Shown here piece after piece: positions 31,580 through 35,778 of a stretch of 64,000 nucleotides of DNA; within the stretch, counting starts at the first letter, position 1, and each line of letters begins with the position of its first letter. Origin of the DNA: Chelatococcus sp. YT9 (GTDB taxonomy: Bacteria > Pseudomonadota > Alphaproteobacteria > Rhizobiales > Beijerinckiaceae). The position numbers and the translations under genes are program-made. The stretch is from contig NZ_JAHBRW010000001.1 of NCBI RefSeq assembly GCF_018398315.1, positions 4,162,501-4,226,500 on the forward strand. Direction: 5' to 3'. Below the pieces are notes generated by a model. It did not search any database. It was not told the origin of the DNA and saw only the letters and a list, made by a program, of their open reading frames with translations.

Positions 31580-33382
31580 TCAATCGCCGATAGCAACGCC
31601 CTCCCGCCGGCTATCGGCCCCGCCCAGAAAACCGGACGGCGTCAGGACGATCGCCTGGGTGCCTGAGGTCATCTGCATGACGGAGACCTGATGGCCGAGC
31701 GCCTCGAGGGGAGCCTTCCAGGCCTCCGCTTCCGTCCCCGCCTCCAGCTCCGTCGGCCCATTGCGGCTTCCAACATTCGGCCAATCCACTGCGACCTGCG
31801 GATCGAGCTTCCAGTCGAGAATGGCGACGAGCGTCTTCGCGACAAAATTGATGATCTGGCTCCCGCCGGGGGATCCAGTGACCACGTAGAGCCGATCGAA
31901 CGCATCAAAGACGATGGTCGGCGCCATTGAGCTGCGCGGCCGCTTGCCGGGTTCGACTCTGTTGGCGACCGGCTTGCCTCCTTCGTTCGGCGCAAAGTTG
32001 AAATCGGTGAGCTCGTTGTTCAGGAGGAACCCGCTCGCCGTCATGATACGCGCGCCGAAACCGCTCTCGATCGTCGTCGTCATCGACACGGCATTGCCGT
32101 TACCATCGACAATCGAAATATGGCTGGTGCCGTTCTCTATACCCTCGGAGGGCGCGAACAATTGCGATCGGCGGGCAAAGGGCGGTTCGCCCGCGGTGGC
32201 GCGGCCGATGGACCGGTCTGGCCGCATCAGTGCTCCACGACCCCGCAGATAGTCCGCATCGATGAGCCCCCGCACCGGCACAGACAGAAAATCCGGATCC
32301 CCGAGATACTGAGCCCGATCGGCATAGGCCAGGCGTCCCGCTTCGGCGATCCAATGAACAGCCTCCGCGCCCTGCCCCATACGAGGAAGATTCTGCTTCT
32401 CAAGCATCGCCAGCATCTGCGCGATCGCAATGCCGCCGGAGCTGGGCGGCCCCATGCCGCAGACTGTGTAGACCCGATAGGGGTGGCATATCGCCGGGCG
32501 CTCGGCGACCGCATAAGCCTTCAGATCCGCCAGTGTCATCCCGCCTGGGTTTTTCGGGTGGCCGGCAACGCTGGCAACGATGTCCTCCGCGATGGGCCCA
32601 TTATAGAAAGCATCCATGCCATCCCGCGCCAGCATTCGCAGAGTCCCGGCCAAAGCCGGGCTCTTCAACAGGGTCCCCACCGCTTTCGGCTGACCATCCT
32701 CGCCATAGAAATAGGCGCTTGCGCGCGCATCCGCCCGCAGCGCCTGCTCCTGGCCAAGAAGCCCGTTCAGCCGCGGCGAAATCGCGAAGCCCTCTTCCGC
32801 CAACCGGATCGCCGGCTCGAACAAGCGCGCCCATGGCAACCTTCCCCAGCGCTTGTGGGCTGCCTCGAGCAGGCGCGGCGTGCCTGGAATACCCACGGAG
32901 CGTCCGCCAACGACGGCCTCCATAAAGGGCATCGGCTTGCCATCCCTTGTCAGGAAAAGGTCCGGCGTCGCGGCTGCGGGCGCGGTCTCACGCCCGTCGA
33001 GGGTCACAAGCGCACGCTTTGCCGCGTCCCAATGGAGCATGAAGGCACCGCCGCCGAGGCCGGAACTCTGCGGCTCTACGAGATTGAGGACGAGCTGCAC
33101 CGCAATGGCGGCGTCCACTGCGCTGCCGCCCGCGCGCAAAATCTCGCGCCCGGCCTCGGCAGCCAGCGGATTGGCGGCGGCGACCATGAACTGGCGCGCC
33201 TCACCAAGAACACGGCTCGCGTGCTTGGTCGCGCCTTCCGGCGCGGGCGCGAGAGCCTGTGCCTCGACCGGGGATGATCCCATTGTCGCTGCCAGGGACA
33301 TTCCAAGCACTGCTGCGCTGCACGCCCGGAAGAAAGACGCGTGCCAAGAGAAAAACGCGTGCCAAGAGGAAAACTGGCTCAT
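31580..33382 (-). CDS. ggt: Gamma-glutamyltransferase
   Basis: This 600-residue periplasmic enzyme hydrolyses glutathione and transfers its gamma-glutamyl group. A long, atypical N-terminal signal (FFRACSAAVLGMSLAATM, ending SPVEAQA) precedes the large subunit. Autocleavage should occur before Thr419 in ENGTSHISIVDGNGNAV, giving the small subunit. Other signatures are SGLGGGAFMLHWD, GRETAPAAATPDLF, GPPSSGGIAIAQML, the Gly pair in TGSPGGSQIINFV and RPRSSMAPTIVFD. The ATG at 33382 has AGGGG eight bases upstream. Immediately after the start there is a six-residue tandem repeat encoded by an 18-base DNA repeat. Confidence 0.93.
   Translation of the reverse strand: MSQFSSWHAFFSWHASFFRACSAAVLGMSLAATMGSSPVEAQALAPAPEGATKHASRVLGEARQFMVAAANPLAAEAGREILRAGGSAVDAAIAVQLVLNLVEPQSSGLGGGAFMLHWDAAKRALVTLDGRETAPAAATPDLFLTRDGKPMPFMEAVVGGRSVGIPGTPRLLEAAHKRWGRLPWARLFEPAIRLAEEGFAISPRLNGLLGQEQALRADARASAYFYGEDGQPKAVGTLLKSPALAGTLRMLARDGMDAFYNGPIAEDIVASVAGHPKNPGGMTLADLKAYAVAERPAICHPYRVYTVCGMGPPSSGGIAIAQMLAMLEKQNLPRMGQGAEAVHWIAEAGRLAYADRAQYLGDPDFLSVPVRGLIDADYLRGRGALMRPDRSIGRATAGEPPFARRSQLFAPSEGIENGTSHISIVDGNGNAVSMTTTIESGFGARIMTASGFLLNNELTDFNFAPNEGGKPVANRVEPGKRPRSSMAPTIVFDAFDRLYVVTGSPGGSQIINFVAKTLVAILDWKLDPQVAVDWPNVGSRNGPTELEAGTEAEAWKAPLEALGHQVSVMQMTSGTQAIVLTPSGFLGGADSRREGVAIGD
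33337..33368. repeat. 18-base tandem duplication inside the ggt signal sequence
   Basis: ACGCGTGCCAAGAG occurs at 33337-33350 and again at 33355-33368, an 18-base period followed by A-rich spacers. It encodes the repeated SWHAFF / SWHASF at the N-terminus of Ggt and looks like a slippage product. Confidence 0.85.
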
Positions 33383-33673: not shown

Positions 33674-33775
33674 TCAGGCGGGCAGGCCCAAGGCGCTTGC
33701 CCAGACGCCGATCATGCTGACGAAAAGACCGAGAGAGGCGAGTTCGATCACGCGACCGAAGAACCATTGAACCAT
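33674..33775 (-). CDS. 33-residue single-span membrane protein behind LexA-like boxes (SidA-like candidate)
   Basis: ATG at 33775 to TGA at 33676-33674 encodes a 33-residue protein. It starts MVQWFFGRVIELASLGLF and continues VSMIGVWASALGLPA. It has a short amphipathic start with one Arg and one Glu, then a single hydrophobic span. The ribosome binding site is strong: AGGAG seven bases before the ATG. Just upstream are two tandem boxes of the GAAC-N7-GAAC type, the LexA operator of alphaproteobacteria, and a third lies about 60 bases further. In Caulobacter, SidA is an SOS-induced membrane protein of 29 residues that blocks division through FtsW/FtsN. Size, topology and operators match that plan; sequence homology has not been tested. 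The gene is too short for routine ORF calling. Confidence 0.65.
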   Translation of the reverse strand: MVQWFFGRVIELASLGLFVSMIGVWASALGLPA

Positions 33776-33791
33776 CGTCCTGCTCCTCTAT

Positions 33792-33827
33792 GTTTTCTGT
33801 TTGTTCTCAATAATTCACTGTTTGTTC
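33792..33827 (-). promoter_or_regulatory. Tandem LexA-like operators
   Basis: On the reverse strand the sequence reads GAAC-aaacagt-GAAT, six bases, then GAAC-aaacaga-AAAC. Each is one base from GAAC-N7-GAAC, and the two copies are 21 bp apart, two helical turns. The first ten bases of the two copies are identical. They end 17 bases before the ATG at 33775. Confidence 0.65.
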
Positions 33828-33886
33828 CTTCGCAATCCAAAGGGGCGCTTATGGATAATGGGGAATGAATCGCCCAATTCGCACAT

Positions 33887-33901
33887 GTTTACTTTTTGTT
33901 C
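33887..33901 (-). promoter_or_regulatory. Third LexA-like operator
   Basis: On the reverse strand this reads GAAC-aaaaagt-AAAC, one mismatch from GAAC-N7-GAAC. Its A-rich spacer matches that of the tandem boxes 60 bases downstream. Confidence 0.45.
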
Positions 33902-34301: not shown

Positions 34302-35477
34302 CTATCTGCCGCCAAGCGCGCGGTAGATTTTGCTCCCGGCCCGACCTGTCGGCGGCATGCCTAGCGCCTGCTCGGCCGCGGCAATCGCCGCGCGGGACTG
34401 GGCGCCGATCTTGCCGTCTGGCTCTCCGACATCATAACCGCGCGCGGCCAGGAGCTTCTGCAACTGGAGACGCTGCGCCCGCGACAACCCCGGATCATCG
34501 GTCGGCCAAGGCGTCCGCAACGCGGGATAGCCGGCCATCCGATCGGCGAGATGCGAGATCGCGAGGGCGTAGGATTCCGCCTGGTTGTAGGCATAGATGG
34601 CGTTGAAATTTGGATAGACGAGGAAGCCTGGCCCGTTGGGGCCGGCCGGCAGCAGGAGCCCCGCCTCCCCCCCGCCCGATAGTGGACGGCCATCGGCCCG
34701 CGTCACTCCGCGACCGGACCACGTGGCGAGCGAAGCGCGATTGTTGCGGCCGGTCGGTCCCTTGTAACCCGACGGCACCGCCACCTCGATCATCCACGGC
34801 TGACCGGTGCGCCAGCCAGCCCGTTTGAGGTAATTAGCCGTCGAACCCAGCGCGTCCGGAACCGACTTCACCAGGTCGCGCCGGCCGTCCCCATCGAAAT
34901 CCACCGCCAGCCGCTGATACGTGGTCGGAATGAACTGGGTCTGGCCGAAGGCCCCCGCCCAGGAGCCATAAAGCTCATCGAGCGTGAGATCCCCCTGGTC
35001 CACGAGCTTCAGCGCCGCCATGAGCTCGCCCCGCCAGAAGGCCTGCCGCCGCCCACCTTCGCACACGAGCGTCGCGAGCGCATGCGGAAGGAAGTTGTCG
35101 CCGGCCTCCGTCCCGAAATTGGTTTCGACGCCCCAGACCGCGGCAATGACGTGGCGATCAACCCCGAAGCGCTGTTCGGCGGCACGCAAGACGCGATCAT
35201 ATTTACGCATCATTGCCTGGCCATCCCGCACACGCTCCTCATCGACGAGGAAGCCTATGTAATCCCAGATCGGGGTCTTGAACTCCGGCTGGACCTTGGA
35301 AAGCCGCAGGACCTTGTCGTCGGGCTGGTTGATCGCCAACGCTTGGGAGATGACATTCTGGCTGATGCCGGAGCGCGCCGCATCAGCCCGGAGCTGGCTG
35401 ATGCATTGCGTGAAATTCGCCGCCGCAGCGCCCGTTCCCATCATCCAGGCTGTCGCGATCAGGACCATGTGCCGCAT
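34302..35477 (-). CDS. Lytic murein transglycosylase (MltB family) with C-terminal peptidoglycan-binding domain
   Basis: This 391-residue enzyme cleaves the glycan strand of peptidoglycan to 1,6-anhydro ends. It has a signal peptide (HMVLIATAWMMGTGAAAA). The SLT_2 catalytic domain has its Glu118 in AVWGVETNFGTEAGDN, followed by SWAGAFGQTQFIPTTYQ and AVDFDGDGRRDL. A C-terminal PG_binding_1 domain starts at LSRAQRLQLQKLLAARGY and includes EPDGKIGAQSRAAI. Periplasmic location is expected; there is no lipobox. The ATG at 35477 has AGGA five bases upstream. Another ATG at 35492 would add five residues. Confidence 0.92.
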   Translation of the reverse strand: MRHMVLIATAWMMGTGAAAANFTQCISQLRADAARSGISQNVISQALAINQPDDKVLRLSKVQPEFKTPIWDYIGFLVDEERVRDGQAMMRKYDRVLRAAEQRFGVDRHVIAAVWGVETNFGTEAGDNFLPHALATLVCEGGRRQAFWRGELMAALKLVDQGDLTLDELYGSWAGAFGQTQFIPTTYQRLAVDFDGDGRRDLVKSVPDALGSTANYLKRAGWRTGQPWMIEVAVPSGYKGPTGRNNRASLATWSGRGVTRADGRPLSGGGEAGLLLPAGPNGPGFLVYPNFNAIYAYNQAESYALAISHLADRMAGYPALRTPWPTDDPGLSRAQRLQLQKLLAARGYDVGEPDGKIGAQSRAAIAAAEQALGMPPTGRAGSKIYRALGGR

Positions 35478-35778
35478 ATAAATCCTACCCATGCTATCGA
35501 GGGTTCACCATGACTTGGATCAGGCTATCATGGTTAATCCTTTTAAAATGTTACCACCGCCCGTAGTTGCGTAAGCGGACCTGATGCAAGATCCGGATTA
35601 AGGGTCTGGTCGACCACAACTCCCTGCAACCGGGAAGGTTGCTCCACCATCATCGATTGCCAGCACAGGCGCGCGCGATGCGCGAGGATGGCGGCGAGGC
35701 CAGATACTGCAACGGGCCGGCGCCTCCCTTCCACCTCCGGCTTGACACCCTCGGTGGCTTTTCCCATAGAGTGCTCTT
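35478..35778. other. Intergenic region before the TPP riboswitch, no gene seen
   Basis: This stretch of about 300 bases separates the divergent transglycosylase gene and the thiamine transport operon. No plausible coding frame was found. It should contain the promoter of the riboswitch transcript. Confidence 0.4.

Follow-up and report, generated by a model that had tools for sequence, protein, structure and literature searches.

In Caulobacter, DNA damage induces the SOS-controlled division inhibitor SidA via RecA and LexA, and SidA blocks division via FtsW and FtsN, a block that hyperactive ftsW and ftsI alleles overcome. A 2026 paper (PMC13396833) presents AlphaFold 3 models, of low confidence, in which the helix of SidA lies on TM7 of FtsW, and names FtsW as the proposed target of YneA, SosA and ChiZ, membrane proteins from other phyla that inhibit division after damage. 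These are work-alikes of SidA in being small, membrane-bound and active against a late division step, but they are regarded as unrelated, some carry LysM domains, and the likeness is drawn here by description only. DidA, from Caulobacter itself, likewise has one helix, is induced by damage and inhibits division, in its case through FtsN, but comprises 71 residues and is induced independently of SOS by DriD. To our knowledge, SidA has been regarded as Caulobacter-specific, and we know of no account of how Hyphomicrobiales halt division after DNA damage; a literature search found no report of SidA outside Caulobacter, which is not proof of absence.

The window, the whole 64,000-nt stretch of Chelatococcus sp. 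YT9 DNA analyzed here, contains a candidate counterpart. As the original prediction had it, a 33-codon open reading frame (ORF; MVQWFFGRVIELASLGLFVSMIGVWASALGLPA, 33674..33775, minus strand) with an ATG start follows the ribosome binding site AGGAG (33783..33787, minus), which is identical in four of four species of the genus. Both its 33-residue product and the 29-residue SidA of Caulobacter crescentus (CCNA_02004) comprise one hydrophobic helix, and LexA-type boxes and an aligned core are common to both, but the core residues of the window protein have diverged and its gene has different neighbors, lying between genes for a gamma-glutamyltransferase (31580-33382, minus) and, upstream, a lytic murein transglycosylase of MltB type (34302-35492, minus), an enzyme of the cell wall.

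The ORF is a real gene under purifying selection. It is kept in four species of the genus with dN far below dS (0.014-0.041 versus 0.36-1.23 over six pairs), matching the anticipated conservation in close relatives, and the protein shares 94-97% identity with its counterparts in the three other species. In the four-species alignment, a block of near-identical DNA extends from about 45 bases above the first LexA-type box (box 1, below) to the stop codon. A chance ORF next to chance boxes might be argued from the equal frequency of one-mismatch boxes in the window and in shuffled DNA, and from the lack of any Pfam match at E 1 or any NCBIfam match for the window protein; purifying selection across the genus, the conserved block up to the stop codon and exact boxes before the relatives lead us to regard this reading as refuted. 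Pfam also matched none of five family members and all NCBIfam models stayed below their cut-offs, which means that the family could well be overlooked by annotation pipelines. AlphaFold2 predicts a single helix over residues 2-28 (mean pLDDT 94.9), and hydropathy peaks at 1.77 over 19 residues. Both values are compatible with one membrane span, as originally proposed, with insertion only predicted.

LexA boxes of alphaproteobacteria follow the pattern GAAC-N7-GAAC. For Caulobacter, PMC12700426 gives GTTC-N7-GTTC, the same site on the opposite strand. Two LexA-type boxes lie proximal to the ORF on the minus strand, box 1 (GAACAAACAGTGAAT, 33813..33827) and box 2 (GAACAAACAGAAAAC, 33792..33806), 21 bp apart and each one mismatch from the consensus. 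Box 1 has at most one mismatch in all four species of the genus, and box 2 in three, with two mismatches in the fourth. A third one-mismatch box (GAACAAAAAGTAAAC, 33887..33901, minus) is present in the window alone and absent from the three other species; it is therefore probably a chance occurrence, and we rejected it as an operator. The tandem and the more distant box were thus correctly placed by the original prediction, but its assignment of the third box to the control of the gene did not hold. Its caution that one mismatch per box leaves regulation uncertain was justified, because shuffled DNA contains such boxes about as often (47 in the window versus 45.2 expected, with 43 of 100 shuffles reaching 47).

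A possible -35 element (TTGCGA, 33830..33835) and a possible -10 element (TATTGA, 33807-33812), read by eye on the minus strand, are separated by a 17-bp spacer that is occupied by box 1. Elsewhere, too, the first box of a tandem can end in GAAT as box 1 does (for example at loci L031, L107 and L119), and boxes of this GAAC-N7-GAAT form are found in box pairs of relatives. In the same genome, lexA is itself preceded by GAACACATAGAGAAC, 150 nt upstream of the start. Just above the LexA-type boxes, within the four-species conserved block, lies a DnaA-box-like sequence (TTATCCATAA, 33849-33858, minus). We rejected it as a general feature, since such 9-mers occur upstream in 2 of 134 family loci, a set that does not include the window's genus.

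With a 13-row profile, relatives of the small protein were found both in the taxonomic family (119 of 199 genomes at E 0.05) and in the order (69 of 397 genomes at E 0.001). A 44-row profile at E up to 0.05 reached 181 of 397 genomes and 67 of 142 genera of the order, an upper-range count that includes weak matches, and a plasmid search gave no match. A separate search covered 27 of 28 named records, from which 13 match loci, chosen for short frames or for belonging to Rhizobiaceae, were read. Forty order-wide loci were hand-picked for spread among the matches listed, with their upstream DNA unseen; for these and for some other relatives the start codon nearest to the profile start was taken, with ATG preferred. 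A Shine-Dalgarno-like motif precedes 126 of 134 family members. Alignment A1 excluded one near copy (L003), one locus with boxes (L014), two possible paralogues without boxes (L009 and L020) and six matches considered spurious (L011, L016, L017, L021, L022 and L023). L009 and L020 are second, longer relatives in genomes G026 and G020, respectively, which also carry a boxed copy, and are possibly paralogues under different control.

The exact box GAAC-N7-GAAC, searched 15-85 nt before the start codon and, as a control, in an interval 250 nt further upstream, is present at 23 of the 30 top loci of the window's family (control 0/28), at 59 of 69 further loci of the family and order (0/67), at 11 of 13 named relatives (0/13), at 15 of 25 Caulobacterales loci (0/24) and at 30 of the 40 order-wide loci (1/40). 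Pooled over these five sets, which include close relatives and hence non-independent trials, the box precedes 138 of 177 loci compared with 1 of 172 controls. Twenty-six of the 40 order-wide loci belong to families that are not represented in the profile, and 21 of them have the exact box. At many loci two boxes are spaced by 11 or 21 bp, one or two helical turns. Of 104 loci with an exact box, 62 have a TTGAC-like -35 element no more than 14 nt above it (control 3/104), which places the operator over the promoter, as expected for a repressor site. SOS control of this small gene family via LexA-type operators is thus strongly supported at the sequence level, in line with the SOS-controlled small membrane protein originally proposed. 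Control of this kind is not universal in the family: no exact box occurs within 300 nt in any of nine loci of genus g111 of f44 (L085, L092-L095, L100 and L399-L401), where it may have been lost or altered. The g111 members are 27 to 31 residues long, read MIIRD(V/I)LALGSL-TF... and occur in two copies in some genomes.

A likely SidA was located in the genome of Caulobacter sp. HMWF025, which contains 101 boxes (47 for a control pattern). A set of 30 loci and a set of 20 sites, the latter selected visually for AT-rich spacers, together covered 44 of these box sites in the search for small hydrophobic ORFs. The most conspicuous ORF had 29 residues and a GTG start and lay under GAACATCTTGTGAAC, immediately upstream of dnaE; the other frame found at these boxes, L286, has 34 residues. 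The two Caulobacter gene numberings differ, presumably by 77 at lon. At recN, published as CC1983 and as CCNA_02062, the difference is 79. With these offsets dnaE, given as CC1926 in PMC1839093, falls at CCNA_02003-02005, in agreement with sidA as CCNA_02004 (PMC10769358). Assigned by length, box and gene numbering, the 29-residue ORF is likely SidA. In a search at E 1 that took 29 of 80 loci, 25 of the 29 Caulobacterales-type genomes yielded relatives, the four misses being named Robiginitomaculum; 19 of the 25 proteins form alignment A3. Beyond the exact boxes counted above, all 25 loci have a box within one mismatch.

Compared by hhalign, the Hyphomicrobiales and Caulobacterales profiles match at 92-93% probability (E 7e-7 and 3e-7) in ungapped alignments over 28 and 26 columns. 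The match scored 27.2, above all of 400 column-permuted profiles (best 20.5), and a reversed profile failed. Provided that the HMWF025 ORF, found among 44 of 101 box sites, is indeed SidA, on which the result depends, this comparison supports homology between the 33-residue peptide and Caulobacter SidA. A point against the orthology reading is the low identity of rhizobial and Caulobacter members to the window protein (14-31%).

Gene order points in the same direction. A dnaE N-terminal motif lies downstream on the same strand at 18 of the 30 top loci of the window's family, at 14 of 29 loci in f20/f36, at 11 of 13 named relatives (including Rhizobium, Shinella, Allorhizobium, Bosea and Microvirga), at 29 of the 40 order-wide loci and at all 25 Caulobacterales loci, as well as at 11 of 20 and 8 of 20 loci in regions with less flanking DNA covered. 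The distance from the small gene is mostly 150-450 nt (142-383 nt in the Caulobacterales). Across 134 loci the motif is downstream in 87, upstream in none and on the opposite strand in one. The occurrence of dnaE after the small gene in both orders favors orthology over convergence. That the peptide, though SOS-controlled, is unrelated to SidA and has come to resemble it by convergence is, in our estimate, highly improbable: very short helices easily look alike, and a comparison of a single sequence with a profile gave just 60.9% probability, but no composition-keeping column shuffle matched the profile score, and dnaE is the downstream neighbor in both orders. The original prediction had left a choice between an independent and a diverged SidA counterpart; the profile match (E 3e-7) and the shared dnaE position speak for a diverged orthologue and against an independent one.

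The window gene is an exception to this arrangement. Many relatives resemble SidA in lying directly upstream of dnaE, but in the window's genome dnaE occupies 4036526-4039600 and the small gene is at 4196177, about 157 kb away. Only one copy of the gene was found in this genome, and the DNA upstream of dnaE showed no exact box; the separation indicates that either the small gene or dnaE was relocated. Since the dnaE position was found here for Caulobacterales and is not a published criterion, its absence from the window gene does not exclude SidA membership.

We therefore favor, at a probability of roughly 80%, the reading that the gene is a sidA orthologue encoding an SOS-induced single-helix inhibitor of FtsW/FtsI/FtsN; induction, LexA binding, membrane insertion and target are the parts that we infer, the FtsW/FtsN target from the published Caulobacter work. 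LexA bound to the tandem boxes within the promoter would silence the gene. DNA damage would activate RecA, leading to cleavage of LexA and production of the 33-residue peptide, which would insert into the inner membrane as a single helix and keep the FtsW/FtsI/FtsN complex inactive, so that septum synthesis would be delayed until repair.

A descendant of SidA could also have stayed under SOS control while its target changed, for instance to membrane potential, which DinQ- or TisB-type peptides lower, or from the septum to the machinery of polar growth. The variability of the helix speaks for such a change. Apart from a few positions, its sequence varies highly over 44 rows; F18, present in 43 of 43 rows of alignment A2, is the sole position conserved in at least 90% of the 44. 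In addition, members of the window's family have an acidic residue at position 11 that is absent in Caulobacter and Rhizobium members. We nevertheless consider a changed target unlikely: the core aligns without gaps from Caulobacter to the window, and operators and gene position are also kept, as expected for a single function.

More broadly, SidA is probably an ancestral SOS division brake of at least Caulobacterales and Hyphomicrobiales, which would have been born beside dnaE, would occur in up to about half of the order's sampled genomes and would have moved away from dnaE together with its LexA operators in some lineages. If so, ancestral SidA would provide the damage checkpoint that polar-growing rhizobia and related bacteria have so far lacked. 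Because the candidate has only some 30 residues, comes with its operators and is found in many genomes, often next to dnaE, the damage-checkpoint question can be put to a direct test; the family's variation provides a map of the requirements for a one-helix FtsW inhibitor, and F18 is a good first residue for mutation. What is new here is the reach of the family, its dnaE linkage and its operators, not the mechanism.

A class-wide search yielded 27/385 matches at E 0.05, three of them from the order. Many of 20 remaining matches lie inside long frames, and the four others outside the order (L324, L326, L327 and L329) all have an exact box and dnaE downstream. In L329, from family f61, the exact box is located at -80 and dnaE follows after 309 nt; the SidA-type family may thus extend to a further order.
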